Assembly: GCF_900089495.1 (NCBI RefSeq)
Contig: NZ_LT605203.1
Span: forward strand, 3,199,547 to 3,263,546
Direction: 5' to 3'
Length of the DNA: 64,000 nt
From: Thiomonas sp. X19
Lineage (GTDB): Bacteria; Pseudomonadota; Gammaproteobacteria; Burkholderiales; Burkholderiaceae_C
The notes under the pieces were generated by a model. That model ran no database searches. It worked only from the letters and a program-made list of their open reading frames with translations, and had not been told where the DNA came from. Numbering within the stretch: position 1 is the first letter of the stretch; each line of letters starts with the position of its first letter. The position numbers were made by a program, and so were the translations under genes. This document shows, piece after piece, positions 18,278 to 41,992 of this stretch.

Positions 18278-18278
18278 T

Positions 18279-18463: not shown

Positions 18464-18500
18464 GGTGGCAGCCCCGGTTGGGTCCGTTCAGCTTGGAGGG

Positions 18501-20827: not shown

Positions 20828-21123
<296 letters not shown>

Positions 21124-21128: not shown

Positions 21129-22661
21129 TCAGCGGTTCAGCCATGCTCGCAGCAACCGGCCAATGGGATGGGACGGCCGCGTGCGCATATAGGCATCTGC
21201 CGCCATTTTGATGGCCTCGGCCTGGGTCGGATAGGCATGGACCACCCCGGCCAGCGTGCTCAGGCCAATTCCCGCAGCCATCGCCAGTGAAATGCTGTTG
21301 ATCATTTCACCCGCGTGCCGGGCGACGATGGTGGCGCCGAGGACGGCATCCGTGCCTTCTCGCACGTGGATTTTCACGAAACCGTTTTCCTCGCCGTCGG
21401 TGATGGCGCGGTCGACATCATGCATCGGGACCGTGAAGGTCTTGACCGGGATGTTGCGCTCGCGTGCCTGCCGCACATACATGCCGACGTGGGCGATTTC
21501 GGGGTCGGTGTAGGTACACCACGGAATCGTCAAGGCACTCATGCGCTTGCGTCCGAAGAACAGGGCGTTTTGAACCGCGAGGCGCGCCGATGCTTCGGCC
21601 ACATTGCTGTACTTGTGGTCGAGGCAGACGTCTCCGGCGGCGTAAATGCGTGGATTGCTGGTGCGCAAGAAGTCATCAACGTGGATCCCGGCTTCAGGGT
21701 CGTATGCGACGCCGGCGGCTTCCAACTCGAGCGCCCGTACCGCGGGCGTGTGGCCGATTCCGGTCAAAATTGCCTCGACCTCGACAGTCACGACATTGCC
21801 GTCATTGACCAACTCGACGAGCTTGCGGCCGCGTTCCACGCGAACGCTGATGGCCTCGCTATTGAGGTGGATCTCGACACCGTCACGGGCCAGCGCGTCG
21901 GAGACCATCTGCGCGGCGTCGCGTTCTTCCTTCGGCAGGAACAAGGGGGCATCGTGGGCGATGATGGTTTGCACGCCGAAGCGGCTGAAGGCCTGCGCCA
22001 ATTCGCAGCCGAGGGGGCCGCCGCCGATGACGAGCAAGCTGCGTGGCAGCGCCGTCAGGTCGAATACCGATTCGTTGGTCAGATAGCCGGCTTCGGCCAG
22101 GCCCGGAATCTCGGGCAGGATGGATCGCGATCCGGTGGCAATCAGCGCCTTCCTGAAGCGCAAACGCGCACCGCCGACTTCGACCGCGTCGGCGCCGACG
22201 AAGTGCGCCACGCCGAAATACAGATCGATCCCGTCGGCGATCAGCCTCGCGGCCGAATCGACGCGGCTGATGCGGGCACGGATGCGCCGCACCCGCTGCA
22301 TCACCGCCTGAAAATCGACCTCGATCGCCGGGGGCGGCCCAGCGCCGAAGTTGGGCGCGTCGCGCATCTCGGCATACAGTCGCGAACTTCGAATCATCGC
22401 CTTCGAAGGCACGCAGCCGTAGTTCAGTGAGCTGCCGCCAAGCCGGTGGCGTTCGATCAATGCCACGTTCATTCCAAGCCCCGCTGCGGCGCGTGCGGCT
22501 GCCAACCCGCCCGGCCCCGCACCGATGATGAGCAAGTGGTAGACGCCGGGTGGCGTCGGATTGACCCAGCCGGATGGGCAGACGTTGGCTAAAAGCTCCC
22601 GCTCATGGGCGCTGTCGCGCGAGGCTGCACCTGGGGTCGCGAGGGTCGGCATCGGCCTCAT
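21129..22661 (-). CDS. MerA-like FAD/NAD(P) disulfide oxidoreductase lacking one redox Cys
   Basis: 510 residues from ATG 22661 (a TTG four codons earlier is possible). Class I flavin reductase fold: FAD P-loop LLIIGAGPGGLAAARAAAG, NAD(P) loop LLVIGGGPLGCELAQAF, second FAD motif RIYAAGDVCL, and a C-terminal dimer domain. The active-site motif, normally GGxCxNxGCxPSK, reads GGSSLNYGCVPSK: the first redox Cys is Ser. The C-terminal active-site motif is HAYPTQAEA rather than HxHPT. There is no HMA domain or C-terminal Cys pair, so it is not a working mercuric reductase. It is the last gene of the carbohydrate operon, 12 bp after the glucanase-like gene; perhaps it uses NADPH made by Zwf/Gnd (inference). 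Confidence 0.88.
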   Translation of the reverse strand: MRPMPTLATPGAASRDSAHERELLANVCPSGWVNPTPPGVYHLLIIGAGPGGLAAARAAAGLGMNVALIERHRLGGSSLNYGCVPSKAMIRSSRLYAEMRDAPNFGAGPPPAIEVDFQAVMQRVRRIRARISRVDSAARLIADGIDLYFGVAHFVGADAVEVGGARLRFRKALIATGSRSILPEIPGLAEAGYLTNESVFDLTALPRSLLVIGGGPLGCELAQAFSRFGVQTIIAHDAPLFLPKEERDAAQMVSDALARDGVEIHLNSEAISVRVERGRKLVELVNDGNVVTVEVEAILTGIGHTPAVRALELEAAGVAYDPEAGIHVDDFLRTSNPRIYAAGDVCLDHKYSNVAEASARLAVQNALFFGRKRMSALTIPWCTYTDPEIAHVGMYVRQARERNIPVKTFTVPMHDVDRAITDGEENGFVKIHVREGTDAVLGATIVARHAGEMINSISLAMAAGIGLSTLAGVVHAYPTQAEAIKMAADAYMRTRPSHPIGRLLRAWLNR

Positions 22662-22673
22662 GGTGCGCGGCAA

Positions 22674-24056
22674 CTACAGCCAGCCGCCCGTGAACCCGGC
22701 GCGGCGCAAGCCCGTCTGGATGATGCCGGAGCTTCGGCCCAGTTGCCACGGCAGGCCGGTACGGTAGTTCTCGATCATCAGCGCGATCATGCCTTGATCG
22801 AGTCCGAACTTGCCCTCGGAGATCCAGACTTCGGCGGCGGGTTCGTTGAAGCTTGCATTGATTCCGCTGGAACGCAGCGCATCGTCCTGTTGGCGCGCGC
22901 CATAGGCATCGAGGTTCCGGACCGCGGGCAGCACGATTTCTGGCGCAAACACCAGCGATGCCAGGGTCGATGAGCCCGCAATGGTGCCGTCGTCGGGTCC
23001 GTACGGCACGCCGCGCGCGGCATAGCCGTAGAACCTCTGCAGCCGGCCGGTCATGAGCCGTGGTTCGGCCAACGGACCTTCACCCGCGGAGAGGCCCCAG
23101 CAGTTGTCGGCATAGCCAGTGAAACTGTGCGGATTGCGAATGGCATATTCGCGCTGCACATAGGTGGCACGACGGCTGTTCTCGAAATAGTCGCAGTTCT
23201 TTTCACGCATGAAACGGTCGCGGATACCGCGAAAGTCAATCCACGCATGGGAGAACTGGTGAATGAAAAGCGGACCAGCATAGAGGAAGTCGTAGCCGTA
23301 AAGGTTCTCCCATTGGTAGGTCACGGTCCACGCCTGAAAGCTTGCTTCGGTGAACGGATGCGTCGGTGAACCCAGGCCCAAGACATAGAGCAAGATGGCC
23401 TCGTTATAGCCCTCCCAGCCATAGTGCAGAAAACCGCATTCAGGCTTCCAGCCCTGGGCAACCGTGGCGCCGTCATATTGAGCCCAGCGCCAGTCAACCC
23501 TGCGGTACAAATGCCCGGCCAGTTCGCGCAGTTCGATTTCGGCTGGCGTGCTGGCATCGAAGTAGGTGGCGGCCGTCAGCATCCCGGCCATCAACAAGGC
23601 CGTGTCGATCAGAGACAGCTCGGACTGCCACATCCGAGCGCCGGTCTCCATGTCGAGAAAATGAAAGTAAAAACCGCGGTAGCCGGTGGCGCTCGGGTTT
23701 CCCGTCTGGTCGCTGGCCCAAAAAAAACGCATGCAAGCGAGGCAGGCTTGCACTGCTGCGGCGCGCTCGATCCAACCATGTTCCACCGCGATGGGATACG
23801 CCGACAGCGCGAAACCCATCACCGCGATGCTTGCCGGCGAGCCGTCCCGCGTGGTGTCGGCGACCAAGCCGTTTCGCGCGTTCGTCGCCTTCGGAAAATA
23901 GTCGAAGGCCGCCTGTTGCAGCCGATCGAGCATGGCCTCGTCGGACCACTGTGCTGCCTTCCCCGAGGCCGCCGCATCGGGTTTTGGCGGCGCTTTTGCC
24001 CGCATGTCATCAGGGGGCGGGCTTGAGGTCGGCGTGGGTGCGGCTGTCGGCATCAT
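22674..24056 (-). CDS. PF10091 'glycoamylase' domain protein (GH144-like glucanase)
   Basis: 460 residues. After a Pro/Ala-rich N-terminus of about 35 residues that does not look like a signal peptide, the whole protein is one (alpha/alpha)6-type domain: FDYFPKATNARNGLVADTT, SIAVMGFALSAYPIAVEHGW, GFYFHFLDMETGAR, GWEGYNEAILLYVLGLGSP, PLFIHQFSHAWIDFRG, NSRRATYVQREYAIRNP. These match the domain found alone in GH144 endo-beta-1,2-glucanases and as the middle domain of cyclic beta-1,2-glucan synthase NdvB. It likely cleaves or trims a beta-glucan in the cytosol. The ATG directly follows the pgm stop (TGA-ATG-ATG). Exact linkage specificity cannot be read from the sequence. Confidence 0.85.
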   Translation of the reverse strand: MMPTAAPTPTSSPPPDDMRAKAPPKPDAAASGKAAQWSDEAMLDRLQQAAFDYFPKATNARNGLVADTTRDGSPASIAVMGFALSAYPIAVEHGWIERAAAVQACLACMRFFWASDQTGNPSATGYRGFYFHFLDMETGARMWQSELSLIDTALLMAGMLTAATYFDASTPAEIELRELAGHLYRRVDWRWAQYDGATVAQGWKPECGFLHYGWEGYNEAILLYVLGLGSPTHPFTEASFQAWTVTYQWENLYGYDFLYAGPLFIHQFSHAWIDFRGIRDRFMREKNCDYFENSRRATYVQREYAIRNPHSFTGYADNCWGLSAGEGPLAEPRLMTGRLQRFYGYAARGVPYGPDDGTIAGSSTLASLVFAPEIVLPAVRNLDAYGARQQDDALRSSGINASFNEPAAEVWISEGKFGLDQGMIALMIENYRTGLPWQLGRSSGIIQTGLRRAGFTGGWL

Positions 24057-25772
24057 TCATCCGGCTTTGCTGCGCCCGGCTGGGCGCTCTGAGGCCACAG
24101 CCGCGGCCGGCGATGAAGTCGCTGGCGCGATGGCGGCATCAACAAGGGTTTGTGCCTCCTTGAGGATGCGCTGCAGGTGCTCGGCCCCCTTGATGCTCTC
24201 GGCATAGATTTTGTAAATGTCTTCAGTGCCCGATGGCCGCGCCGCGAACCAGCCGCTGCTGGCGACGACCTTGATCCCGCCAATGGGCGCGTCATTGCCA
24301 GGCGCCTTGTTGAGGACGCTCTCGATCTTCTCCCCGGCCAACTCAGTCGATGCGATCTGTTGCGGCGTCAACGCCGCCAACTGCTTTTTCTGCTGCGCAG
24401 TCGCAGGCGCTTCGACCCTGTCGGCCACTGGAGGATTGCCGAATGCTTTGGCCAAGTCCAGATACAGAGCGCCAGGATCGTGCCCGGTGCGCGCGGTGAT
24501 CTCGGCCGAAAGCAGCGCGGCGGTGATGCCGTCCTTGTCGGTGGTCCAGACCGCGCCGTCGCGGCGCAAAAAAGCCGCGCCCGCGCTTTCTTCTCCGGCG
24601 AACCCGAGCGTGCCGTCCAGCAACCCTTTGGAGAACCACTTGAAACCGACCGGAACTTCGTCGAGGCAGCGGCCGAGTCGGGCAGCGACCTGGTCGATCA
24701 AGCGCGTACTGACAACGGTCTTGCCAACAGCGGCCCGTGCGCCCCATTGCGGCCGATGCCGAAACAGGTAGTCGATGGCGACCGCAAGATAGTGGTTCGG
24801 CGCCAGCAAGCCGGCGGCGGGAGTGACGATGCCGTGGCGGTCGTGATCGGTATCGCAGGCGAAGGCGATATCGAAGCGGTCCTTGATGTCGAGCAAGCGC
24901 TGCATCGCGTACTTCGAAGAGGGGTCCATGCGGATCTGCCCGTCCCAGTCGAGCGTCATGAAGCGAAAGGTCGGGTCGACGACATCGCTGACGACTTGAA
25001 GATCGAGCCGGTAGTGCTCCGCGATGCGCGCCCAGTAGTGCACGCCAGCGCCCCCCAGAGGGTCGACTCCCATGCGGATCTTGGCGCTGCGAATCGCGTC
25101 CATATCGATCACGCTGCCAAGATCGCCGACATAGGCGCCGAGGAAATCATGGCGGTGCGTTGTCGCTGCGCCGAGGGCCTTCGGGTGGGACACGCGCTTG
25201 ACGCCATCGAGGTTTTTTTCGAGAAGGCGGTTGGCGGTGGCGCCGATCCAGTCGGTGATGTCCTGGTCGGCGGGGCCGCCATTGGGCGGGTTGTATTTGA
25301 AGCCGCCATCGCGCGGCGGGTTGTGCGACGGCGTCACGACAATGCCGTCGGACAGCCGTTTGCGGCGGCCATGGTTGTGCGTCAGGATGGCGTGCGAGAT
25401 TGCCGGGGTCGGGGTGTATTCATCGTTCAAGGCCAGCATCACATCGACGCCATTGGCTGCGAGCACTTCGAGCGCGCTCGCGCATGCCGGCTCCGACAGC
25501 GCATGCGTGTCGATGCCCAGAAACAGCGGCCCGTCGATGCCATGCTTCCTGCGGTATTGGCATATGGCTTGCGTGATGGCGAGCACATGCCTTTCGTTGA
25601 ATGAACCGTCCAAGGCCGAACCACGGTGCCCCGATGTGCCGAACGCAACGCGCTGCGCTGCGACTGTCGGGTCGGGCACATTGACGTAGTACGCCGTGAC
25701 GAGCTTGGCCACATCGACCAGCAGCGCCACGGGCGCCGGCTTGCCCGCGAGCGGGCTGATCCGCGTGCTCAC
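24057..25772 (-). CDS. pgm: Phosphoglucomutase (alpha-D-glucose-specific)
   Basis: 571 residues from a GTG overlapping the transketolase stop; bacterial Pgm is usually about 545, and the extra length is an Ala/Pro-rich tail after [13 protein letters not shown]. It interconverts glucose-1-phosphate and glucose-6-phosphate. The four-domain signature is complete: [18 protein letters not shown], the phosphoserine loop [17 protein letters not shown], the metal loop [15 protein letters not shown] (DxDxD), the sugar-binding [12 protein letters not shown], and the phosphate loop [16 protein letters not shown]. In this operon it is the natural link between a GH94 product (glucose-1-phosphate) and Zwf/Pgi. 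Confidence 0.97.
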
Positions 25773-27937
25773 GGTCGTGCTCCCTGCCGAGTCGATGGCT
25801 GGCGGGCCAGTTGCTGCTTTGCTGCGGCGACGACATGCGCCGCATCCAATCCGAAATGCGCTTCAACGACCTTGCCCGGCGCCGACAAGCCAAACGTGCG
25901 CATGCCGAGGATGGCGCCGTGCTGCCCGACATAGCGCTCCCAGCCCAGGGGCGACGCGGCCTCGACCGAGACGCGCGCCGTCACGGCTGGCGGCAGCACG
26001 CTGTCGCGGTAGGCCTGGCTCTCGCGCTCGAACAACTCCCACGACGGCATGCTGATGACGCGGGCCTTGATGCCTGCGCGCATCAGTTCTTCGCGAGCGG
26101 CGACGCACAGCGCCACTTCGCTGCCCGTCGCCAGCAGCAGCACGTCGGGCTGGCCATCGGCCGCGTCGGCCAGCACATAGGCGCCGCGCGCGAGGCCCGT
26201 GGCGCTGGCGTAGATGCTGCGGTCGAGCGTGGGCAGCGCCTGGCGTGTCAGCACCAGGCTGACCGGCCGGTCCGTGATCCGCATGATGACCTTCCACGCC
26301 TCCATCACTTCATTCGCATCGGCCGGGCGCAGCAGCACCATGCCGGGCATCGCCCGAAACGATGCGAGCTGCTCGATCGGCTGGTGCGTCGGCCCGTCTT
26401 CTCCCATGCTGATGGAGTCGTGGGTCCAGAGATAGATCACCGGAATGCCCATCATGGCGCTGAGTCGGATGGCGCCTCGGCAGTAGTCGGTGAAGACGAG
26501 GAAGCTGGCGGCGAAGGGGCGAAGTTTCGACAAGGACAGCCCGTTGGCAACGGCGCACATCGCATGCTCCCGAACGCCGAAATGAAGGTTGCGGCCCGCA
26601 TAGGCATGGGCCCTGTCGGTGTGATCGGAGGGGGGCTCGAGGTCGCCGGCGAAGTCGAAAGTCAGATGGGTTTTTGTCGATGGCGCCAGGTCAGCCGCAC
26701 CGCCGAGCAACCAGGGCATGTGTGCGGCGATGGCGTTCAACACCTTGCCCGAGGCGTCACGCGTGGCGATGCCCTTGGGGTCGGCCGCGAAACTCGGCAG
26801 GGCGCGGTTCCAGCCGTCGGGCAAGGCGCGGCGCTGCATCTGCGCGATTTGCAGCGCAAGGTCGGGGTACTGCGCCCGATAGGCCTCGAACTGCGCCGTC
26901 CAGCGGGCATGGGCGCTCGCGCCACGCTCGCCGAATTGCGCACCGAAGTGCGCCTGCACGCCGTCCGGAACGGCGAACTGCACGGTCGGATCGAAGCCGA
27001 AGAACTCCTTGGCGAGCCGCACTTCTTCGATCCCGAGCGGCTCGCCGTGAGCCTCCTTGGTGTCTTGCTTGTGCGGCGCCCCGTAACCAATATGGCTTTG
27101 CACGATGACGAGTGTCGGCCGGTCGTCGGTGTCGATAAAGCTCTGGAAACTGCGTGTCAGAGCATCGAGGTCGTTCGCGTCGGCAACGCGAACGACCTGC
27201 CAGCCGTAGGCCTCGAAGCGCGCGCCGACATCCTCCGTGAAGGTGATCGAGGTCGAGCCTTCGATGCTGATGTGGTTGTCGTCGTAGATCCAGCACAGAT
27301 TGGCGAGCTTCAGATGGCCGGCGAGTGATGCCGCCTCGCTGCTGATGCCTTCCATCATGTCGCCATCGCCGCACAAGGCGTACACGTTGTGATCGAACAG
27401 CGCAAAGCCGGGGCGGTTGTAGGTGGCGGCGAGCCAGGCCGAAGCCATCGCCATGCCGACGCTGGTGGCTGCCCCCTGGCCGAGTGGTCCGGTGGTGGTC
27501 TCGACGCCCGCAGCCGCGCCAAATTCCGGGTGGCCGGTGCAGCAACTACCCGCCTGGCGAAACCGCTGTAGCTCGGCCATCGTGACGGCCTGCCCGTCAG
27601 GCTCTGCGTCCGTCGGGTCATCGCTCCCCGCCCTCGCCTTCACGCTGCACAGGAACAAGAGGCTGTAGAGCAAGGCCGAGGCGTGGCCGGCCGACAGCAC
27701 GAAACGGTCGCGGTTCGGCCAGTCCGGCGCGTTCGGGTCATAGCGTAGAAAGCGCTGCCACAGGCAGTAGGCGACGGGCGCTGCATCCAGCGGCGTGCCG
27801 GGGTGGCCGGAGTTCGCCTTCTGCACGGCGTCAATCGACAGCGTGCGCAGCGTGTTGATGCATCGCTGGTCGAGCTGCGCCGCGCCGCTCGCATCGTTGA
27901 CCTCGGCGCCGTGTTCACCCTGCGTGTGGCGGTTCAT
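25769..27937 (-). CDS. tkt: Transketolase
   Basis: 722 residues from ATG 27937 (GGAGAGG upstream, ATGA overlap with the preceding gene); the frame is open further upstream but family similarity starts here. Thiamine-diphosphate enzyme of the non-oxidative pentose phosphate path. N-terminal block [20 protein letters not shown]; ThDP motif begins [10 protein letters not shown] and continues to [15 protein letters not shown]; active-site blocks [40 protein letters not shown] and [10 protein letters not shown] are present. Length is slightly above the usual 660-690 owing to N-terminal and interdomain insertions. Translationally coupled to both neighbours. Confidence 0.97.
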
Positions 27938-28887
27938 GGGGCCTCTCCGGCAATGGCATCGGTGCCGGCGACGCGCGCCGATCGCCCTCGCTCGAAGATG
28001 TCGATCCACGCGCGCAAGCGCCCGGCAATCTGCGCGGCCGCTTCAGCACGAGTCAGGGTCTGCCCCCGGTAACCAGCGACAGCATCCCAAAAGCTCGTGC
28101 GGCCCACGGCGAAGCCAATGAACCCTGGAACGCTGGCGGCGGTTACGAGCCAGCTTCGCACACTGGCTTCATCGGCGCCACGGCCCAGCACGATGCAGCC
28201 GACCGCGTCGCGTCCATCGCGCCGCACCGTTTCAACCATCCGTACGCAATCGCCACGATCGGCGAGGCCCTCGATCTTCCAGACGTCGGGTTCAATCCCC
28301 GCGTCCTGCAAGGCGCGGATGGACTCGACCATGAGCTGCGGGCGCATGTTCAAGTCGTAGGCCGCCCGGTCACCGTTCAGGCCGGCGAGTTGCTGCTCGG
28401 TGGCCGGCACAAGCAGTTCGAACATGAATCGGCGACCGCTTGTTTGACAGACATCCGAGAGCTGCTTCAAGCGCGCGACCTGGCGCAAGTTCATCGCGCG
28501 GTCGCCCTGCGGGTTGTAGCGGACCAGCACTTTGGCGAAAGTCGGGTCGAAGACATCGATATGGCTGGCGAAGTCGGCTCCGTATTCAAACTTGAATTCG
28601 TCCGATCCGCTGCGCTCGGTTGAAAGCGCCGTGGTGAAGCCGCGCCGGTGCGCGTCTCGCAGAATGTTGGCGCCGAACTCTTCGTCGACCAGGAGACCCG
28701 CCGATCCGCTTGGCACGCCGGCCTCCAATGCAAGCTGGAAGCCCTCATAAATGAGCTGTTTGCTGTCGCAGACTTGGTCGCGCTGGAGTGCGGACAGCGG
28801 CGGTTCGAAGTGGAACATCCCTGTGACGTAGGAATGACGATGGTCGAATGGCAGCAGATAGAGCGCTTTGTCGTAGCCGGGTTTCAT
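27934..28887 (-). CDS. DUF2090-family aldolase-like protein (IolC C-terminal type)
   Basis: 317 residues from ATG 28887, which overlaps the pgi stop and has AAGGAG eight bases upstream. The opening [20 protein letters not shown] and the later [22 protein letters not shown]-type strands and [18 protein letters not shown] match DUF2090, a TIM-barrel family related to class I aldolases. It is known as the second half of some 5-dehydro-2-deoxygluconokinase proteins and as 2-deoxy-5-keto-gluconate-6-phosphate aldolase. The kinase half is absent and no inositol genes are nearby. In a pentose-phosphate operon it may act on another phosphorylated sugar acid or ketose; substrate unknown. Confidence 0.82.
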
Positions 28888-30569
28888 GACGACTCCTTGC
28901 GTTGGCGTTGGTAGCGGCGCATCAATGCGTTGGTCGAGCTGTCGTGGGTGAGCGGCGCGTTGCTGGTGTCGGCCAATTCCGTCACGATGCGCTGCGCCAG
29001 AACCTTGCCCAGCTCGACGCCCCACTGGTCGAACGAATCAATGTTCCAGATGATTCCCTGCGTGAAGACGCTGTGCTCGTACAGCGCCACCAGGGCTCCA
29101 AGTGTGTGCGGAGTCAGCCGCTCGGCCAGCAGGGTATTGCTCGGGTGGTTGCCCTCGCACACGCGCTGCGCGACCTGCGCCTCGGCCACGCCCTCGGCCT
29201 TCAGCGCTTGTTCCGTCTTGCCGAACGCAAGGGCCTCGGTCTGGGCAAACAGGTTGGCCATCAACAAGTCGTGCTGATGGCCCCGTGGATTTTGGCTGTG
29301 GACAAAGCCGATGAAGTCGCACGCCACCAGCCGCGTGCCCTGGTGCAGCAACTGGAAGAACGAGTGCTGGCCATTGGTGCCGGGTTCGCCCCAGACGATG
29401 GGCGAGGTCGCCGTGCTGACCTGCTGTCCAGCGGCCGTGACATGCTTGCCGTTGCTCTCCATGGTCAATTGTTGCAGGTAGGCGGGTAAGCGTTTGAGAT
29501 CGTGGTCGTAGGGCAGCACGGCCAGCGTCTCGGCACCGAGGAAGTTGTTGTTCCAAATGGCCAGCAGGCCCAGCAGCACGGGCATATTGCGGGCAAGCGG
29601 GGTGCGTTGGAAATGCTCGTCCATGGCGCGGAATCCAGCCAGCATGGCGCGAAAATGTTCCGGCCCGATCGCAATCATGGTGACGAGGCCGATGGCTGAA
29701 TCCATCGAGTAGCGGCCACCGACCCAATCCCAAAGCGCGAACATATGCGCAGGGTCAATGCCGAAAGCCGCAACCGCCTCGGCGTTGCTCGAGACGGCGA
29801 CGAAATGGCTGGCAACTGCACGCTCGTCTCCGATCTGGCCCAGGCTCCAGGCACGCGCGGCATGCGCATTGGTCAGCGTGTCGAAGGTGCGAAAGCTCTT
29901 GGAGCAGACGATGAAGACGGTTTCAGCGGCATCGAGGCCGCATGTCGCTTCGGCCAGGTCGTTGGGATCGATATTGGAGACGAAGCGCATGCGCAGTCCA
30001 GCCTGGCTGTAGTGTCGCAGCGCTTCGCAGGCCATCACCGGGCCGAGATCGGAGCCGCCAATGCCGATGTTGATCACATTGCGAATGGGTTTGCCCGTGT
30101 GGCCGAGCCACTGGCCGCTGCGAATCCGGTCCGCGAAGGCCGCCATGCGGTCGAGCACGGCATGGACTTCGGGCACGACATTGACGCCGTCGACGACGAT
30201 GCGCTCGCCGGCCGGAGCGCGCAGCGCCGTATGCAGCGCGGCGCGCTTCTCGGTCGCGTTGACCGGATCGCCACGGAACATTGCATCCATGCGCCCGCGC
30301 AGGCCGCAGCGTTGGGCCAACTCGACCAGCAGCTCAAGCGTCTCGTCGGTCATCCGGTTTTTCGAGTAGTCGAGGTAAAGCCCTGCCGCTTCGACATGCA
30401 GGCGTTCGCCGCGCTGCGGGTCATCGGCGAAATACTGGCGCAGATGCCGCTCGCCAAGGGTGTGATGGTGCTCGACGAGTGCCTGCCAAGCGGGAAGCTG
30501 GGTCAGCGGTTGCGCCGGTGGCCGTGCTTGCAGCGGCGCCGATGGCATGGGAAGCTCGGCGCGGCTCAT
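28884..30569 (-). CDS. pgi: Glucose-6-phosphate isomerase
   Basis: 561 residues from ATG 30569, coupled to the transaldolase stop (ATGA). Interconverts glucose-6-phosphate and fructose-6-phosphate. Family signatures: [18 protein letters not shown], the phosphate-binding [35 protein letters not shown], catalytic Glu in [20 protein letters not shown], and the C-terminal Lys region with [13 protein letters not shown]. Full length with about 30 extra Pro/Ala-rich N-terminal residues. With Zwf it allows fructose-6-phosphate made by Tal/Tkt to be recycled, i.e. a cyclic pentose phosphate route. Confidence 0.97.
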
Positions 30570-31657
30570 GGCGCGCTGGCCTGCGTGAGCTGCGCCGTCT
30601 TGGTGCTGATGGCTTGCAACAGTTGACGCCACGAGGCGGCAAACGCCTCGGCGCCTTCACGCTGCAGGCGCTCGGCCAGGGCATCGGGGTCGATGCCTTG
30701 GCGGCCGCAGTCCGCAAGCACGGCTTCGGCGTCGCCTCCATCCGGCGGCAGCATGTGCCTGACTTGGCCGTGATCGGCAAAAGCGAGCAGGGTTTTTTCG
30801 GGCATGGTGTTGATGGTGCGCGGGGCAGCCAGAGCCTCGACATACAAGGTATCGGGCGCCGCCGGGTCTTTTGTTCCGGTGCTGGCCCACAACAAGCGCT
30901 GCGCGCGCGCTCCGGCGCCCGCCAGCTTTTGCCAGCGGGGTGAGGCTAGCAATGCGCAGTAGGCTTGATAGGTTTGCATCGCCACGGCGATGCCGAGGCG
31001 GTTGCGCAGCTGCGGCGGGATCGTGTCTTTCACCGCGACATCCCAGCGGCTGATGAAGAGCGACGCGACCGAGCCGACGTTCGGGTCGAGCCCGGCCTGG
31101 ATGCGCCGCTCGACGCCGCGCAGGTAGGCCTCGGCCGCAGCCAGGTACTGCTTGCACGAGAACAGCAGCGTGACGTTCACCGCAAGACCGGCAAAGATGG
31201 ACGCTTCGATTGCCGCAAGGCCTTCGATGGTCCCCGGGATCTTGATGAACAGATTGGGGCGATCGGCGCGCGCATGCAGTTCTGCCGCTTGCTCGATGGT
31301 GTTCGCGGCGTCGTGGGCCAGCAGTGGCGACACCTCCAGCGAGACCCAGCCGTCAACACCCGCGCTTGCGTCAAAGATGGGACGGAACAGGTCGGCCGCT
31401 TGCGTCAGGTCTTCGAGCGCCAATGCAAAAAACAGGCTGTCGTCCGATTGACCCTTGCGGGCCCCGCTGCGAATGGCCTCGTCGTAGGCGGTGGAGTGGC
31501 CGATGGCATGCTCGAAAATCGTCGGGTTCGAAGTCAGTCCGGTCACGGCCAAGTCGCGGATATAGCGTGCCAATGTGCCGCTGCGGAGAAGCTCGCGCGT
31601 GATGTTGTCGAGCCAGAGGCTTTGGCCGAGATCGTGCAGTTTTTGGGTGGGGTTCAT
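30566..31657 (-). CDS. tal: Transaldolase
   Basis: 363 residues, the longer transaldolase subfamily found beside pgi, zwf and gnd in many bacteria and cyanobacteria. N-terminal [53 protein letters not shown], and the Schiff-base lysine in [17 protein letters not shown] (Lys near residue 138). The following strands VNVTLLFSC and [10 protein letters not shown] are typical. AGGAG precedes the ATG, which overlaps the HAD gene stop by 4 bp. It transfers a dihydroxyacetone unit between sedoheptulose-7-phosphate and glyceraldehyde-3-phosphate. Confidence 0.97.
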
Positions 31658-32367
31658 GGTGACTCCTGTTCTGTGCTGCCGGCTGGTTTTGGCTCCAGTA
31701 GCGCGGTGAGATCGACGGCCAGCAAATCACCGATGCAATCCAGGCTGATGTCAGCCTTCGGATAGTTCGCGATGTTGTCGGGGTCGTTGGCGTAATGGCC
31801 CTGGCGCGGAAAAACGGTTGTCAGGCGTTCGCCAAGGCTTTGCTTCATGGTCGCGAGGATGCGCAGCTTGTCATCGACCATCACGTAGTGCTGCGCCGGG
31901 TAGCGCTGTTGCACGGCGTCGAGCATGAGCTCCTTGTGGAGATAGATCAGCACGCGGCCCTCCACGGCGTGCCACAAGCCGGAGCGCTGCACCTTGCGCG
32001 GTTGGAACACGACATCGCCATCCGTCAGTAGCACGGTCGGGCCGAAACGTTGCAGCCGTTCGATGACGCGCAGCGCGCCGGCATAGAGCCGGTCGGCGAA
32101 TGGGTAATCGATCAGGAAGGTGGACATTTCCAGCAGCCGCGGATCGCTCAATGCATCCCGCAGCTCATCCATGCGGTAGCGCTGCAAGGCACCCAGGTAA
32201 TCGGCATAGCCCAGTTCACTGCGCAACTGCTCGAAGAGAACCCAGTAGCGTTCGGCGCTGACGCGGCCGAACGTGCGCTCCAGGTGCTGCCGGAGATCGT
32301 CGATGACACGGTCGTTGTCGAGCAGCGTGTTGTCGACATCCAGCAGAAAAACGACGTCATGGTCCAT
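31654..32367 (-). CDS. HAD-superfamily hydrolase
   Basis: 237 residues. Motif I is FLLDVDNTLLDND at the very N-terminus (nucleophile Asp, then Asp+2 replaced in spacing as DxDNT), motif II Thr in VLLTDGDVVF, motif III Lys region IYLHKELMLDAV, motif IV VMVDDKLRILATM. A helical cap lies between motifs I and II, as in class I phosphatases of the phosphoglycolate or beta-phosphoglucomutase type. It sits between zwf and tal with overlaps of 4 bp or gaps of 4 bp, so it most likely acts on a sugar phosphate of the same pathway (inference). Nothing in it resembles 6-phosphogluconolactonase. Confidence 0.85.
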   Translation of the reverse strand: MDHDVVFLLDVDNTLLDNDRVIDDLRQHLERTFGRVSAERYWVLFEQLRSELGYADYLGALQRYRMDELRDALSDPRLLEMSTFLIDYPFADRLYAGALRVIERLQRFGPTVLLTDGDVVFQPRKVQRSGLWHAVEGRVLIYLHKELMLDAVQQRYPAQHYVMVDDKLRILATMKQSLGERLTTVFPRQGHYANDPDNIANYPKADISLDCIGDLLAVDLTALLEPKPAGSTEQESP

Positions 32368-32371
32368 GGCA

Positions 32372-33781
32372 TCAACCCTCGGCTTCAGGGTTGTGCCAGC
32401 CGCCGTCGGCCGCGATCAGGCGGTCGGCCTCTCGCGGTCCCCAGCTGCCGGGCGGGTAGGCGATGGCGCGCGGATGCTTGATGAGCACCGGCTCGACCAC
32501 TGCCCAGGCTGCCTCGACAGCCTCTTCGCTGGTGAACAGCGCGTTGTCGCCGGCCATGGCGCCGGTGAGCAGGCGCTCATAGGGCGTTTCTTCGCCCGCC
32601 TCATCTTCGACGAGGATCAGTTCGTGCTGCTCTCCCACATCATCCTTGCCAGGGCGTTTGACGCGGGCGGCCAGGGCAATCAGCGAGGTTGGCGACAGCC
32701 GAAAGCGCAGATGGTTGGTCTGCGCGCCCGTGGCCACGGCGTCCGCGAACAGCGCCAGGGACGGCGGTTGCAGCCTGACCAGCACCTCGCAGCTGGTCAC
32801 TGGCAGTTGCTTGCCCGCACGCAAATACCAGGGCACGCCCGCCCATCGCTTGACGTTGATGTGCAGGCGCATCGCGCAATAGGTTTCGACATCCGAATCT
32901 TTCGCGACCTGCGGCTCATCGCGGTAAGTCGCGTACTGGCCACGCACCATGTCGGCCGGGCGCAAGGGCCGCATCGCCTTGAAAACCTTGAGCTTCTCGC
33001 TGTTGACGGCCGCGAAGTCGCGTCGCGCCGGGGGTTCCATGGCGAGCAGCGCGGCGATCTGGAAGAGATGGTTCTGAATGACGTCGCGCAGGCAGCCGGC
33101 GCTCTCGTAAAAACGACCGCGCCCAAGCACGCCGAAATCCTCGGCAAGCGTGATCTGCACGCTCGCCACATGCTTGCGGTTCCAGATGGGTTCGAGGAAG
33201 GAATTGGCGAAGCGCAGGTAGAGAATGTTCATGATCGCTTCCTTGCCCAGGAAGTGATCGATGCGAAAGATGGCATCGCTGGAAAAGGCGTCGGCCGCGA
33301 CGCGGTTGAGTTCGCGCGCGGAGGCCAGGTCGCGGCCGAATGGCTTCTCGACGATGACGCGCCCCTGTGCCGCCAGCCCTGCTTTGCTCAGGCCACGGAT
33401 GACGGTGGAGAACAGCGTGGGTGGAATGGCCAGGTAGTGCGTGGGCCGCTGGGACGCTCCGAGCGCGAGCTTGAGTTGGGCATAGGTACCGGCGTCGTTG
33501 TAGTCGCCGCTGACGTACTGCAGTTGCGACAACAACTGGGCGAGCGCTGACGCGTCGTCCACGGCGCCGGCGCGCTCGATGCTTTGCTGTGCACGGGCGC
33601 GCAGCTGCCCGATGGTCGAAGGCGAGGAGGCGACGCCGATCACCGGCCCATTCAGCGCGCCGCTCTTGCGCATGGCATAGAGCGCCGGAAAAATCATTTT
33701 GTCGGCGAGATCGCCAGTCACGCCGAAAACGACCAGCGCATCCGACGGCAGGGCTGCAGCGCGAGAAGAATCGTCATGCAT
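32372..33781 (-). CDS. zwf: Glucose-6-phosphate 1-dehydrogenase
   Basis: 469 residues from ATG 33781, one base after the gnd stop; the frame is open 34 codons further but lacks family sequence. Oxidises glucose-6-phosphate to 6-phosphogluconolactone with NAD(P)+. The dinucleotide loop is [18 protein letters not shown] (the family more often has GASGDL), [11 protein letters not shown] gives the substrate/cofactor Lys, and the active-site signature [14 protein letters not shown] is intact. Slightly shorter than the E. coli enzyme (491). Cofactor preference cannot be told from the loop alone. Confidence 0.96.
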
Positions 33782-33782
33782 A

Positions 33783-34817
33783 TCAGGGCTTCGGCTTGGG
33801 CTCGCCGGAGGTGGGTTCGACATGGCCGCCGAATTCATGCCGCATGGATGACAGCACGCGGTTGGCGAAATCGGCTTGATCACGCGAGCTGAAACGTGCG
33901 TAGAGCGCAGCGCTCAGCACCGGCGCTGGCACCGCCTCGTCGATGGCAGCCTGAATCGTCCAGCGGCCTTCGCCGGAGTCGGAGACATGGCCCTGAAAGC
34001 TCGACAGCGCAGGATCTGCGGCCAGCGCTGCGGCGGTGAGGTCAAGCAGCCACGAACCGATGACGCTGCCGCGCCGCCAAACCTCGGCGATCTCCGGCAG
34101 GTCCATGTCGAACTGGTACATGGCGGGATTGCGCAGCGGGGTCGTCTCGGCATCGACAGCGTCGGGGCGTTTGCCGACATTGGCGTTGTGCAAAATATTC
34201 AGCCCTTCGGCATACGCGGCCATGATGCCGTATTCAATGCCGTTGTGAACCATCTTGACGAAATGCCCGGCGCCATGGGAGCCGCAGTGCAAATAGCCCT
34301 GTTCGGCGCTGCCTGCGCCTGGACTGCGCCCCGGGGTCGGGACGGCGGTGCCGACTCCGGGCGCCAGCGCCACGAACAACGGGTCGAGGTGCTGGACGGT
34401 GGCTGTCTCGCCACCGATCATCAGGCAATAGCCCCGGTCCAGCCCGGCAATGCCGCCACTGGTGCCCACGTCCACATAGTGCAAGCCAAGGGCACGCAGT
34501 GTGGCGGCGCGACGGATGTCGTCGCGGTAATAGGAATTGCCGCCGTCGATGACGATGTCGTGCCTGTCGAGCAGCGGCGTCAGCGCTGCCAGGGTCGCGT
34601 CGACCCCCGCTGCGGGCACCATCAGCCAGATCGTGCGCGGCGTGGATAGCGCCTGGACGAACTGCTGCATCGTCCCCGCGCCCTGGGCGCCCTCGCCCAT
34701 CAGTGGCTCGATGGCGGCAGCTTGCGTGTCGTGGACGACGCATGCGTGGCCCGCGCGCATCAGCCGGCGCGTCATATTGGCGCCCATGCGCCCAAGTCCA
34801 ATCATGCCGATTTGCAT
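33783..34817 (-). CDS. gnd: 6-phosphogluconate dehydrogenase, short (GndA/YqeC-type)
   Basis: 344 residues, the short, usually NAD-preferring class (about 300-350) as opposed to the 470-residue form. [20 protein letters not shown] is the Rossmann loop; [35 protein letters not shown] and the catalytic [20 protein letters not shown] (Lys and Asn) are all present. AAGGAA lies eight bases before the ATG. It oxidatively decarboxylates 6-phosphogluconate to ribulose-5-phosphate. The gene follows the GH94 gene by 18 bp. A gene for 6-phosphogluconolactonase is missing between zwf and gnd. Confidence 0.96.
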
Positions 34818-34835
34818 CGCAACATTCCTTGTTTT

Positions 34836-37800
34836 TCAGTTCGGTTCTTGTCGAGCTGGATACCGCACTTCGATCGCGTGCTCCAGACCGTCGTCAATCA
34901 ATGCAATGGCCGGCCCCGCCAGTTCGACACCATCCAGCGTCAGCCTCGGCTCAGCGTCAGTTGCGGCCGTTTGCTGCACGGTGATGTGGTAGGTGGTCTC
35001 CAGGTGGCGGTAATGCATCTGGAATGAAGTCCAGTCCCGAGGAATGCATGGGACGAGGCGCAGTTGGTCGCCGATGCGCTGCAGACCCAGCAAGGACTCG
35101 AGGATGAAGCGGTACATCCAGCCGGCCGAACCGGTGTACCAAGTCCAGCCGCCGCGGCCGGCATGCGGCGCGAATGCGTAGACGTCGGAGGCCATCACAT
35201 AAGGCTCTGTTTTGTAGACCGCAATGGCCTCGGGCGAGTCGGCGTGCCGAATCGGATTGAGCATGTTGAACAGATCCCAGGCACGTGCGGCATCACCAAG
35301 CGCCGCGAACGCCATGGCCACCCAAACGGCGCCGTGGGTGTACTGGCCGCCGTTCTCGCGGACGCCGCTGACGTAGCCCTGGATGTAGCCGGGGCTCGGA
35401 TCGGAGTGGTTGAAGGGCGGGGCCAGCAGCTCGATCAGCGCGGCGTCGCGGCGCACGAGCCGGGTATCGACAGCGCGCATGGCGCGGCGTGCGCGCGTTG
35501 CTTCAGCGGCGCCGGACAATACGGCCCAACTCTGGGCGATGGAGTCGATCTGACACTCGGTATTGCTCGACGTGCCAAGCGGCGAGCCATCGTCGAACCA
35601 ACCGCGACGGTACCAGTCGCCATCCCAGCAGCTTTGTTCGATGGCGTTGCGCAGGCGAGTGGCCTCGCTTGTGCAACGCTCGACGAAGACAACATCGCCA
35701 CGTTGCCGCGCCAGTTCGCCGAACTGTGTGAGAACGCCATGCAGGAAGAAACCAAGCCAGACGCTTTCCCCTTTGCCTCCCACGCCGACCAGGTTCATGC
35801 CGTCGTTCCAGTCGCCCGAGCCCATCAGCGGCAAGCCATGCTCGCCGAAGCGCAAACCATGCTCGATGGCGCGCACGCAATGTGCGTAAAGACTTGCGGT
35901 CTGCCTGGACGTTGTGGGCAAGGCGTAGTCGGACACCGCATCGGCCTTGAGGGCGGCGCCGTCGATGAAAGGCACGGTTTCATCGAGTACACCGGCGTCG
36001 CCGGTGACACCGACATAGCGGCATGTCGCCAACGGCAGCCACAGGTAGTCGTCCGAGCAGCGCGTACGGATGCCGCGACCCGACGGCGGATGCCACCAGT
36101 GCTGAACGTCGCCTTCGGGAAACTGGCGTGACGCACTGCGGAGCAAATGCGCGCGCACCAAATCCGGTGTGGCATGGACCAGCGCCATCACATCCTGCAA
36201 CTGATCGCGAAAACCGAAGGCGCCACTCGATTGATAGAACGCCGTGCGCGCCCAGAGCCGACACGAAAGAATCTGATAGACGAGCCAGCCGTTGGTCAGC
36301 ACGTCGAGCGCCCGGTCCGGCGTTTCGACCTGCACGGCACCAAGCGTCTGCGCCCAGTACTGCTTCACGGCGTCGAGTGCGCCTTGTGCTGGCGCGGATC
36401 CGCGCCAGCGCTGCACGAGGCTGGCTGCAGCCGCTTCGCCTTGCGCTGCGCCGAGTCGAAAGATCAGCTCGCCCGTCTGGCCCGCCGCCAAGGTGATCGG
36501 CATCCGGACGGCGGCACAGGGATCGAGCGCAACGCCGACGACACCCGAGAGCAGCGTCTGCGACATCGCGGCTGGATGACGCAGCGTGCCGTTGCGCCCG
36601 AGGAAGGCCAGGCGGTCACCGCACACGCTGGCGTTGGCGATGCCGTCCACATCCAGCATGGCCACCCGGCCGGCGAAGTCGGCGTTGTAGGGGTTGCGGG
36701 CGAATACGGCGCCGCTGCTGGCGTCAATCTCCGTTCTCACCTGCATGCAGGTCTTGGCGCGCTCATCGCCAAGCACCCATTCCACATAGGCCGTGACCGA
36801 AAGCCGGCGTGCGTCGGCCGAAGCATTGTGCAACTTCAGCACGGCAAATTTGACTGGCGCGTCGATCGCCACGTACACACTGAGAACCGAGTCAATGCTG
36901 TTTTCGCTGTGCTCGAACACGCTGTAGCCAAAACCGTGCCGTGTCACATATGGCGTGGCGCCTGCCGTCGGCAGCAGTGTGGGCGACCAGAACTGGCCGC
37001 TGTCCTCGTCGCGGATGTAATACGCCTCGGTATTGGCATCACCAACCGGATCGTTCGACCACGGTGTGAGGCGAAACGCTTGCGCGTTCTCGCTCCAGGT
37101 GTTCGCGCTGCCGCTCTCCGAAATGAGACTGCCGAATGACGGATTGGCCAACACATTGATCCAGGGCGCAGGCGTCATCTGCCCCGGCGTGATCGTGATC
37201 ACGTACTCGCGTCCATCGGGGCTGAACCCGCCCAAGCCGCAGTCCAACAACAAATCGCGCGCAGGCGTCTGCATGGGCGGCGCCACTGGCGCCGGGCGCA
37301 AGGACTTGGTCGCGTTGTCGGCATTGCCCGCGAGGCGATCTGCAGCGGCTGGCGGCGGGGCTTCGGCCGCGCACCGGCTGGCGAGTTGCTGCGACAAGGA
37401 GCCTTCGCCATCGCGCATCACGACGCGCGATGCCGTTTGCAGAAGAATGAGGTCGGACGGCGCCACTTTGTCGGCGTCGCGCATCCATAGCCCACCCGGC
37501 TGATCCATCAGTTCAGCCGTGTTGCATGCCTTGCTCGAACGCAGGAGCAGCGCGTGCAGATCAGCCAGGTTCGCGGTGTGACCGTCGCCTTCACACAGAA
37601 AGAGCGTATCCACCTTCAAGCCGTGCCACCGCCAATACGCATGCGCCCGGACGAACTCCCTGACCAAATCGCAATGGGTCGGGCACCTCACCTGCAGCAG
37701 CGCGATCGGTAAATCACCCGAAATCGAATACGCCCATAATCCCGATTGCCCCTGGTTGTTGCGCGCGATGATGTCCGGGCCGGCACGCATGGATGCGTTG

Positions 37801-38780
37801 GCGTAAATCAGGGAACTGGCAAGCTCTGCATACAACTGCACGTCGGCTTCGCTTGCATCCAGCCGATGCAGGGTTTCTTGTCCACGCCTCGTCGCATCGG
37901 CAAGAATTGGGTCCGCAGCTGCGCCACTTCGATACCGCTCGATGATTTGCAGGCAGGCTTTGCGTGTTTGCGCCACGCCGCAGAGCCAACGCACGACCAC
38001 GGTTTCGCCGGGATCAAGCTCGATCGGATAACGAATCGACACGGCCGCATCGAGCACCGAACCGGAGCGGCCGGAAAGCGTCGCGCCATGGTCCATGGCT
38101 TGCGGATGCTCCACAGTCCGCCCACGTCCGATGAAATCCGCGCGATCCGTGTTGTAAGACAGGTCCCCCAACGCCGGTTTCGATGCCTGCAGCAGGTGAA
38201 ACGTCGAGGCTGGCTGGTCCCTGGCATCGCTCACCCGGCGGGTGCACAAGATGGCCTGCTGTGCGGGCAAGATCTCCGTTTCCACAAACAGCTTTTCAAA
38301 TGCAGGATGTGTGGAATCGGCAGCGTTCGATGCAAGCACGATTTCCGCATAACTCGTGACTTCAATCGCTCTCTTGCCGAACGATTGGTTGCTGATTCTG
38401 ATTCTGCGGAGTTCGACATCATCGAACGGCGAGACGGCAATTTCCGTTTCGATCCGTATACCGTGGTCAAGGCGGCGAATGATCGCCTGCCCTTCCGAGA
38501 ACACAGTTTCGTAGACATCCCCTCGCTGCAACGTCGGCTGATACGTCGTCGACCATACCTGTCCACTCGCAAGATCGCGGATATAGCAAAACGATCCCCA
38601 ATTATTGCAGGTCGCATCGTCACGCCAGCGCGTGACGGCAATATCTTTCCATCGGCCGTACCCACCGCCAGCGCTAGTGAGCATGATGTGGTATTCATCA
38701 TTCGACAGCAAATGCGCGTCTGGGCGCAAATGACTCAAGTCACGGCATAAATCTGCCTGGACGGTCCGCGAGGCTCTCAT
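34836..38780 (-). CDS. GH94-family phosphorylase-like protein (NdvB C-terminal type)
   Basis: 1314 residues, no signal peptide or membrane helix. Two related beta-sandwich units: residues about 19-300 (YHIMLTSAGGGYGRWKDIAV, WGSFCYIRDLASGQVWS) and about 520-800 (GREYVITITPGQMTPAPWIN, EAYYIRDEDSGQFWSPT). A helical catalytic GH94 domain follows, with the general-acid Asp in LPLMGSGDWNDGMNLVGVGG (near 988) and the downstream PPFNHSDPSPGYIQGYVSGV and GWTWYTGSAGWMYRFILE blocks. This equals the last half of cyclic beta-1,2-glucan synthase (about 2800 residues) without its GT84 and glucanase parts, and is close in size to 1,2-beta-oligoglucan phosphorylase. Likely reaction: phosphorolysis of a beta-glucan to glucose-1-phosphate, or the reverse. 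First complete gene of the operon; GAGGCAG before the ATG. Confidence 0.88.
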   Translation of the reverse strand: MRASRTVQADLCRDLSHLRPDAHLLSNDEYHIMLTSAGGGYGRWKDIAVTRWRDDATCNNWGSFCYIRDLASGQVWSTTYQPTLQRGDVYETVFSEGQAIIRRLDHGIRIETEIAVSPFDDVELRRIRISNQSFGKRAIEVTSYAEIVLASNAADSTHPAFEKLFVETEILPAQQAILCTRRVSDARDQPASTFHLLQASKPALGDLSYNTDRADFIGRGRTVEHPQAMDHGATLSGRSGSVLDAAVSIRYPIELDPGETVVVRWLCGVAQTRKACLQIIERYRSGAAADPILADATRRGQETLHRLDASEADVQLYAELASSLIYANASMRAGPDIIARNNQGQSGLWAYSISGDLPIALLQVRCPTHCDLVREFVRAHAYWRWHGLKVDTLFLCEGDGHTANLADLHALLLRSSKACNTAELMDQPGGLWMRDADKVAPSDLILLQTASRVVMRDGEGSLSQQLASRCAAEAPPPAAADRLAGNADNATKSLRPAPVAPPMQTPARDLLLDCGLGGFSPDGREYVITITPGQMTPAPWINVLANPSFGSLISESGSANTWSENAQAFRLTPWSNDPVGDANTEAYYIRDEDSGQFWSPTLLPTAGATPYVTRHGFGYSVFEHSENSIDSVLSVYVAIDAPVKFAVLKLHNASADARRLSVTAYVEWVLGDERAKTCMQVRTEIDASSGAVFARNPYNADFAGRVAMLDVDGIANASVCGDRLAFLGRNGTLRHPAAMSQTLLSGVVGVALDPCAAVRMPITLAAGQTGELIFRLGAAQGEAAAASLVQRWRGSAPAQGALDAVKQYWAQTLGAVQVETPDRALDVLTNGWLVYQILSCRLWARTAFYQSSGAFGFRDQLQDVMALVHATPDLVRAHLLRSASRQFPEGDVQHWWHPPSGRGIRTRCSDDYLWLPLATCRYVGVTGDAGVLDETVPFIDGAALKADAVSDYALPTTSRQTASLYAHCVRAIEHGLRFGEHGLPLMGSGDWNDGMNLVGVGGKGESVWLGFFLHGVLTQFGELARQRGDVVFVERCTSEATRLRNAIEQSCWDGDWYRRGWFDDGSPLGTSSNTECQIDSIAQSWAVLSGAAEATRARRAMRAVDTRLVRRDAALIELLAPPFNHSDPSPGYIQGYVSGVRENGGQYTHGAVWVAMAFAALGDAARAWDLFNMLNPIRHADSPEAIAVYKTEPYVMASDVYAFAPHAGRGGWTWYTGSAGWMYRFILESLLGLQRIGDQLRLVPCIPRDWTSFQMHYRHLETTYHITVQQTAATDAEPRLTLDGVELAGPAIALIDDGLEHAIEVRYPARQEPN

Positions 38781-39318: not shown

Positions 39319-39539
39319 GGAATGAAATCCGTTACGGATTTTTTGATTCTGGCGTACCGCGTCCAATCCAAAATAATCGTTGCACGTCAAACTGGCATCA
39401 CCCCGGAATACGCCTGCTGCATGGTAAACTGCGGGCAATGAAAGACGAAAGACACATGCAAAACTGTCTGCTCGCGATGAGGTGATCGTAGGCACAATAT
39501 CGTGCTTTCAAGACACCGGATATGACGAATATCGGGATA

Positions 39540-41701: not shown

Positions 41702-41992
41702 GTCAGATTCCCGATGAATGTGCTGCTTGCCGAGGCGATTTCTGATGCGAGAATTGATCTATTTTGTTCAACCCATTGCCCAGACACTTCGCACAATTGG
41801 CATAATTGACACACGACGCAAGTATCCGTTGCCTCAAGGCTATATTGAACTCCTACGGTTGTTTTAACGCTTCTTGCTTGGTTGACGATCGTTACCCTGT
41901 CATTGTTTTCGACATGATGGATTCGTTTTTGTTGTTTAGGCGATACTTGATTGTCCATATAATACGACTTGAAACCCGTTTTGAGTTGTTAA

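Follow-up and report, generated by a model that had tools for sequence, protein, structure and literature searches.

An eleven-gene operon of Thiomonas sp. X19 that may link breakdown of the cell's own beta-1,2-glucan to a second set of pentose-phosphate genes

The operon described here lies on a 64,000 nt stretch of DNA (the window) from Thiomonas sp. X19, whose genome is 4.67 Mb in size. It consists of eleven open reading frames (ORFs), all on the minus strand, between window positions 21129 and 38780; all operon coordinates given here are window positions. Families were assigned to the eleven products using Pfam and NCBIfam. From the 5' end of the operon, the genes are:

34836..38780, minus strand: GH94 phosphorylase (P0001, 1314 aa), with Pfam supersandwich (two stretches) and catalytic domain matches
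33783..34817, minus strand: gnd, short NAD-type 6-phosphogluconate dehydrogenase (TIGR00872, 405 bits, cut-off 297)
32372..33781, minus strand: zwf, the genome's second glucose-6-phosphate dehydrogenase, without an Arg50 equivalent (TIGR00871, 455 bits, cut-off 400.6)
31654..32367, minus strand: HAD-family phosphatase-like protein (PF00702)
30566..31657, minus strand: tal, transaldolase (NF002881/PRK03343, 469 bits, cut-off 367)
28884..30569, minus strand: pgi, glucose-6-phosphate isomerase (NF001211/PRK00179, 815 bits, cut-off 492)
27934..28887, minus strand: DUF2090 class I aldolase-like protein (PF09863)
25769..27937, minus strand: tkt, transketolase (TIGR00232, 774 bits, cut-off 682)
24057..25772, minus strand: pgm, phosphoglucomutase (TIGR01132, 856 bits, cut-off 778)
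22674..24056, minus strand: SGL, GH144-type endo-beta-1,2-glucanase (P0002, 460 aa; PF10091; 379 bits with XcSGL, 8xul)
21129..22673, minus strand: FAD pyridine-nucleotide oxidoreductase (P0003; NF004991, 723 bits, cut-off 620)

Start codons were refined by codon usage and by reading of the tal/pgi junction, where the start of pgi was set at 30569 on the basis of its ATGA overlap with tal (the longest ORF would give a spacing of -67 bp). The spacings are then +18 bp (GH94-gnd), +1 bp (gnd-zwf), +4 bp (zwf-HAD) and -4 bp (HAD-tal and tal-pgi) in the 5' part of the operon, and -4 bp (pgi-DUF2090, DUF2090-tkt and tkt-pgm) and 0 bp (pgm-SGL and SGL-flavoprotein) in the 3' part. The original prediction for this locus, of eleven minus-strand genes that overlap by 4 bp or are separated by no more than 18 bp, was confirmed following this refinement, and its view of the genes as one tightly packed unit is supported both by the spacings and by the conserved order described below. 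Because gene order is conserved across loci, the coupling of the eleven genes is considered to be beyond chance. The families were also named correctly according to Pfam and NCBIfam, with the exception of a MerA label for the flavoprotein, which falls under the equivalog cut-off. A "full" pentose phosphate cycle was an overstatement, as 6-phosphogluconolactonase, rpe and rpi are not found among the eleven genes by Pfam or NCBIfam. Promoter-like and terminator-like sites between positions 20600 and 40400 occur at the level of shuffled sequence (4 versus 3.7 and 16 versus 14.2, respectively), so neither a single transcript nor internal promoters are supported.

The best solved relative of P0002 in a PDB search is XcSGL (XCC2207), a GH144 enzyme with a narrow specificity for beta-1,2-glucan, whose complex structure was solved using an E239Q mutant and in which E239, F286 and Y367 are the residues of the clan (PMC12102758). 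Based on a 14-residue offset read off the PDB-search alignment, the P0002 counterparts are E219 (the acid catalyst), F264 and Y345, with D151 as a candidate base. P0002 thus carries the three residues that define GH144 and its clan in section 3.1 of PMC12102758. In an alignment of 53 rows (44 distinct), E219 and F264 are conserved in 44/44 homologues, D151 in 43/44 and Y345 in 40/44, the four Tyr exceptions being the most distant rows (L037 twice, L038 and L039). P0002 shares the acid-catalyst position, base candidate, Phe and Tyr with XcSGL and differs in that its gene adjoins those for a phosphorylase and oxidative pentose-phosphate enzymes. Judged by these residues, P0002 looks like a GH144-type endo-beta-1,2-glucanase with an intact catalytic site, and by comparison with XcSGL its substrate is most likely beta-1,2-glucan. 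A PF10091 protein with 83% identity is found in T. delicata DSM 16361, and one with 89% identity in a metagenome-assembled genome (MAG) filed as Burkholderiales.

PF10091 also matches the middle domain of cyclic glucan synthase (CGS). In the PDB search, neither a Cgs chain nor 8wy1, used here as the representative of the CGS-type (GH189) cyclisation domain, was matched by P0002 at E ≤ 0.001, and the PF10091 score is 247-249 bits for P0002 versus 72 bits for the host's own CGS. A split CGS was rejected on these grounds, the PF10091 protein being GH144-like and unlike the CGS middle domain. Separately, a genome of the same genus without a free GH94 gene (G016) carries two tandem SGL genes on one short contig (C56; L009 and L010) and CGS on another.

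P0001 aligns with residues 1541-2790 of the Agrobacterium tumefaciens Cgs chain, the C-terminal half of that protein (987 bits, E-value: 1e-295). Its residues D859 and D993 correspond to Cgs D2393 and D2528, which are the residues mutated in the inactive Cgs phosphorylase (PMC10901819). With a supersandwich domain, a catalytic domain and both Asp residues, P0001 has the features of a CGS-type GH94 phosphorylase. It is not a complete CGS: at 1314 aa it has only GH94 matches in Pfam and, in contrast to Cgs, it is free-standing, lacks the glycosyltransferase and membrane parts, falls in a clade of its own and has its gene in one operon with those for a glucanase and pentose-phosphate enzymes. Among solved structures, the SOGP-type chain 5h3z, presumably LpSOGP, is only a distant match (E-value: 2.5e-7, versus 1e-295 for Cgs), and P0001 may still function like SOGP.

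A midpoint-rooted GH94 tree was built from 25 of 32 collected rows, seven duplicates or edge-cut rows having been dropped. Eleven free GH94 proteins group together in one clade (99/99), next to which stand 10 of the 11 CGS phosphorylase domains; the Acidiphilium CGS is placed outside the main CGS clade. The free GH94 clade takes in all tested operon copies outside Dyella, while the free copies of Dyella and Sinorhizobium branch elsewhere. Since eleven free-standing copies form a supported clade, we rejected the possibility that the GH94 gene is a mere CGS fragment. GH94 relatives with approximately 47% identity, mostly annotated as "glucoamylase family protein", were also noted on plasmids of Pantoea, Rahnella, Serratia, Klebsiella and E. 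coli; that of Rahnella is an 8.4-kb, CGS-sized gene adjoining a GH1 gene.

Neither SGL nor GH94 has a hydrophobic stretch in its first 45 residues (maximum 12-residue hydropathy means of -0.09 and 0.37), as assessed with a simple hydropathy window rather than a signal-peptide program. This agrees with the original prediction that neither glucan enzyme has an export signal and that the glucan would hence be cytosolic. The characterized relatives PgSGL1 and PgSGL2 are likewise without an export signal (PMC12102758).

Both zwf and pgi are extra copies in this operon, as the host genome holds two zwf and three pgi genes. The NADPH that had been proposed as a product is doubtful. Gnd scores over the short NAD(+)-dependent equivalog TIGR00872, with an Asp closing its presumed second strand (VVHD), and also over NF007161, a subfamily named NADP-dependent (455 versus 271 bits). 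The 2'-phosphate of NADP is bound in E. coli Zwf by K18 and R50, and discrimination is lost when both are removed (PMC4807051). When the E. coli protein was positioned by eye in our alignment using the primers printed in PMC4807051, the operon Zwf was found to have Thr and Ser, respectively, at these positions and so does not resemble an E. coli-type NADP-specific Zwf. At the first position, nine aligned operon and Dyella Zwf proteins have Thr or Ser; the second is Ser in seven of them and Tyr in two, but Arg in both the host housekeeping Zwf and the CGS-linked Zwf of T. delicata. Because of the Gnd model and these Zwf substitutions, NADH appears the more likely product.

With respect to the three remaining proteins, the DxDxT motif of HAD is invariant in eight aligned homologues and its AlphaFold model has a mean pLDDT of 83. 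The DUF2090 model was poor (mean pLDDT 61.5) and was not used; this gene is also present in other Thiomonas operons, a Ramlibacter MAG and a Polaromonas plasmid locus. P0003 scores over the "FAD-containing oxidoreductase" subfamily NF004991. Mercuric reductase (MerA, TIGR02053) was rejected for P0003 based on its score (383 versus 454 bits) and because the redox Cys pair is not conserved, the first Cys being replaced by Ser.

The same gene order was found in other genomes following tblastn searches of the window proteins against 29 named loci, all of which had been found through SGL. SGL is followed by the flavoprotein gene in 20 of these loci and directly preceded by pgm in 11, while the long block from gnd or zwf through HAD-tal-pgi-pgm-SGL-flavoprotein occurs in seven (in that of L018, HAD is in two pieces and only a fragment of pgi is present). 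Three more loci (L013, L014 and L017) begin inside the block at a contig end. The core order was identified in Thiomonas-like genomes and in Ramlibacter, Polaromonas, proteobacterial and Salinisphaera MAGs; in the last, GH94 is approximately 4 kb from gnd, with genes for a Crp-type regulator and universal stress proteins between them. Outside Thiomonas-like genomes the DUF2090-tkt pair is absent from the middle of the block and tkt, where found, lies beyond GH94 or after the flavoprotein gene (L016). Two Dyella genomes have the genes in three blocks: GH94, SGL-flavoprotein-gnd and CGS-zwf-HAD-tal-pgi-pgm-tkt. The order on a Variovorax plasmid, classed as mobilizable, is GH94-gnd-zwf-GH15-HAD-tal-tkt-pgm-SGL-flavoprotein, in which GH94 and SGL are open frames, although neither has an entry in the plasmid's incomplete gene table.

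Two groupings point to horizontal transfer of the module: the Salinisphaera GH94 groups with the Polaromonas copy (100/99), and the Dyella CGS is nested within a supported group (100/100) whose other members are all Thiomonas CGS. On plasmids, SGL loci are found near varied sets of genes (phosphoketolase, acetate kinase, stress and metal genes, GH15 or glgP), none of which was identified at the SGL locus of Sinorhizobium meliloti pSymB. These neighbourhoods suggest a role in survival metabolism for plasmid SGL modules, with room for variation in the feeding enzyme.

The host CGS is approximately 2900 aa in length and is encoded elsewhere in the genome. Its GH94 and PF10091 parts score over cut-off, while its family-2 glycosyltransferase match is just under (24.1 versus 27 bits). 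In a set of 60 genomes of relatives (own genome included), SGL was found in seven and CGS in 15, and all seven SGL genomes have CGS (hypergeometric p of 2e-5, for related genomes that are not independent). Within the genus (28 genomes), SGL was found in six, free GH94 in five and CGS in eight genomes, with SGL and free GH94 always within the CGS set (p of 7e-5 and 6e-4, respectively, without kinship correction). In an even draw of 203 genomes from the class, the own genome among them, six have SGL-type PF10091, 18 have the CGS type (two with frames of only about 700 aa) and four have both (p of 0.005 without the own genome).

Partial physical linkage is observed as well. CGS is directly followed by zwf-HAD-tal-pgi-pgm-tkt in the two Dyella genomes and directly by zwf in T. 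delicata. Only two zwf hits were obtained in the latter genome, the copy next to CGS and the operon copy, neither of them a housekeeping zwf; its CGS-linked Zwf shows 74% and 69% identity to the Dyella Zwf proteins versus 55% to its own operon copy. CGS and SGL share a contig in the two Dyella genomes, in Salinisphaera, in G042 (where CGS is near gnd-pgm-SGL), in the MAG G001 (approximately 35 kb apart), in G190 (domain hits approximately 7 kb apart) and on Acidiphilium pACRY01 (where CGS is beside SGL-flavoprotein). As a separate observation, the Salinisphaera CGS (L082) is adjoined by genes for a partial phosphoglucomutase (domains III-IV only), acetate kinase and an Orn/Lys/Arg decarboxylase.

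We lean, if only slightly, towards reading this operon as a mobile catabolic module, by which the cell would break down cytosolic beta-1,2-glucan of its own making and feed a dedicated second oxidative pentose-phosphate set. The basis of this reading in the sequence is the families of the proteins, their intact active-site residues, the packing and order of the genes, and co-occurrence and partial linkage with CGS. CGS, the soluble domains of which face the cytoplasm (PMC10901819), would make beta-1,2-glucan at the cytoplasmic face of the membrane. The GH144-type endo-glucanase would open and shorten this glucan and the free-standing GH94 would phosphorolyse the resulting oligosaccharides to glucose-1-phosphate with no ATP spent. 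Pgm would convert this to glucose-6-phosphate for oxidation by the second, dedicated Zwf/Gnd pair (with NAD+ likelier than NADP+), and Tkt, Tal and Pgi would bring carbon back to glucose-6-phosphate. The substrate in vivo, the direction of flux and the cofactor are all inferred in this scheme, as are the roles of the last three proteins: HAD and DUF2090, being phosphatase- and aldolase-like, may aid the recombining of triose phosphates, and re-oxidation or electron transfer may be the task of the flavoprotein. The chemistry from GH94 through glucose-1-phosphate, Pgm and glucose-6-phosphate to Zwf and Gnd had been predicted at the outset and is supported. The glucan can be narrowed to what is most likely beta-1,2-glucan from the host's own CGS.

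Two known systems are useful for comparison. In glycogen mobilisation by GlgP, an internal glucan is phosphorolysed to glucose-1-phosphate, which is then passed to Pgm. The route proposed for the operon is analogous in its phosphorolysis of an internal glucan followed by Pgm, and differs in its beta-1,2 linkage and enzyme families and in that GlgA is under cut-off in this host (58.6 versus 328 bits). The Listeria innocua genes lin1838-1843 are similar in that GH94 phosphorolyses beta-1,2-glucan chains to glucose-1-phosphate (PMC3960220). That system differs in its proposed importer and beta-glucosidase and its lack of CGS, and pentose-phosphate genes are not mentioned in the available part of PMC3960220. 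No paper describing the coupling of beta-1,2-glucan or CGS to pentose-phosphate metabolism was found in full-text searches judged by title and abstract. The proposed pathway is thus a variation on known beta-1,2-glucan degradation, with a link to the synthase that was not met in the literature searched.

Several findings weigh against the catabolic module as we have drawn it. The host CGS and the operon are approximately 3 Mb apart on the contig, and CGS is also far off or on another contig in T. delicata (G011), G020 and G021. Two of the six SGL-type genomes in the class-wide draw have no CGS. Among 26 named genomes reached through the loci, CGS was found in 19, of which 13 come from the 17 genomes that have the SGL-flavoprotein pair and six from the nine that lack it; the four genomes with the pair in which CGS was not found (L013, L014, L028 and L033) are all MAGs. 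As CGS is about equally frequent in both groups, its enrichment tracks SGL and not the pair, which slightly reduces our confidence. The SGL of the Variovorax operon carries Ala at the D151 position, and some SGL modules adjoin other glucan enzymes (GH15 in Variovorax and glgP in Criblamydia). Residues of the K18/R50 type do not by themselves decide cofactor use (PMC4807051). Two Dyella genomes just reach the cut-off for the ChvA exporter (TIGR01192), and another, unrecognised glucan exporter is possible. Finally, glycogen genes have been reported in a Thiomonas genome (PMC2829063), so beta-1,2-glucan would not be the only reserve of the genus.

This last point bears on a broader proposal, which is more tentative and which we would sooner doubt than accept: that scattered Proteobacteria store carbon and energy inside the cell as beta-1,2-glucan, with CGS as the synthase, GH144 and GH94 mobilising the polymer and a dedicated NAD-linked oxidative pentose-phosphate set burning it, and that the whole cycle travels from species to species on islands and plasmids. 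GlgA is over cut-off in only two of 18 genus genomes (own genome included), one of which (G001) carries the operon, and since 16 of the 18 are under cut-off, the absence of glgA does not mark operon carriers. Given the GlgA scores across the genus and the published glycogen genes, a reserve role is plausible without being the necessary conclusion. The established roles of cyclic beta-1,2-glucan are in osmotic adaptation and host interaction. If the catabolic reading is correct, the recurring link between CGS, a cytosolic glucanase-phosphorylase pair and a private oxidative pentose-phosphate set would make this glucan a metabolic reserve as well, and would suggest a purpose for the "glucoamylase family" genes of plasmids.

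An unlikely, though the best surviving, alternative is that the operon serves osmoregulatory glucan turnover or quality control. CGS glucan would then be periplasmic or exported as in rhizobia, the operon would do no more than recycle cytosolic chains that are in excess or wrongly processed as osmolarity shifts, and the pentose-phosphate genes would provide redox defence. CGS products are tied to osmotic adaptation in known systems (PMC10901819), an aquaporin-family gene is found upstream of the operon both in the window and in G001, and the Polaromonas plasmid block includes a gene annotated as NAGGN amidotransferase. Such a role fits poorly with the finding that ChvA is over cut-off in 0/60 relatives (host best: 299.8 versus 585.4 bits). 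In a check of eight named genomes, the positive control Sinorhizobium americanum scored 1155.6 bits and five besides the Dyella pair were under cut-off. A whole second pentose-phosphate set and the CGS-zwf arrangements would also seem to exceed the needs of recycling.

We consider it improbable that the operon is instead a general accessory island of central carbon metabolism for stress or low oxygen, with a pentose-phosphate or phosphoketolase core and glucan enzymes (GH94, GH15 and glgP) as interchangeable feeders. This would account for the phosphoketolase, acetate kinase, universal stress protein, PRPP synthetase and metal-resistance genes found near plasmid SGL genes, and for the Crp-type regulator and universal stress protein genes between GH94 and gnd in the Salinisphaera MAG, which has acetate kinase near CGS. 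An Fnr-type fragment is also present upstream of the operon in the window:

38790..39495, minus strand: Fnr/CRP-type regulator in two overlapping frames, a helix-turn-helix (HTH) part and a cyclic nucleotide (cNMP) part (cNMP domain; Fnr HTH fragment, 30 bits)

This gene, which may be broken or contain a sequencing frameshift, is a possible regulator of the operon given its place upstream of GH94. When 19 upstream regions (10 of GH94, five of CGS and four of other window genes) were scanned for Fnr boxes, the best result was 8/10 matches, in seven regions, and the best scores were equalled by 13 to 79 of 300 shuffles; thus no consistent box is found upstream of GH94 or CGS, contrary to what a stress island would lead one to expect. 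In addition, SGL is the gene common to the loci (as they were found by it) and its nearest characterized relative is beta-1,2-specific. The stress-island interpretation is compatible with the catabolic module rather than exclusive of it. Least probable of all is scavenging, in which sophoro-oligosaccharides from other bacteria would be imported and degraded as proposed for exogenous 1,2-beta-glucan in L. innocua on the basis of a GH94, a glucosidase and an ABC importer (PMC3960220), as there is no transporter or porin among the eleven genes and most examined carriers have their own CGS, of which L. innocua has none according to that paper.

Other features were noted in the window. At positions 41990-43619, two cytochrome c genes lie between the arms of a 155-nt inverted repeat (96%) in a low-GC stretch (47% at 40-44 kb), an arrangement that resembles the remains of a mobile element. 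Just beyond the operon end, a short plus-strand frame at positions 20690-21061 contains a collagen-like repeat (PF01391). Further past the operon and on its strand, positions 14712-19982 encode a CRP-like regulator, a GGDEF-histidine kinase and a KaiC-like ATPase, and the same trio is also found downstream in L011, the MAG behind G001.

Among the plasmids, SGL of the Polaromonas, Sinorhizobium (pSinB) and Criblamydia replicons (L098, L099 and L100) is near genes for phosphoketolase and acetate kinase or for PRPP synthetase and thymidine phosphorylase, with metal-related genes close by. The SGL-flavoprotein pair has a second recurring setting on Mesorhizobium and Acidiphilium plasmids (L104 and L096), where it follows another glycosyl hydrolase gene and where SDR, GMC oxidoreductase, DoxX and cupin genes are found nearby.

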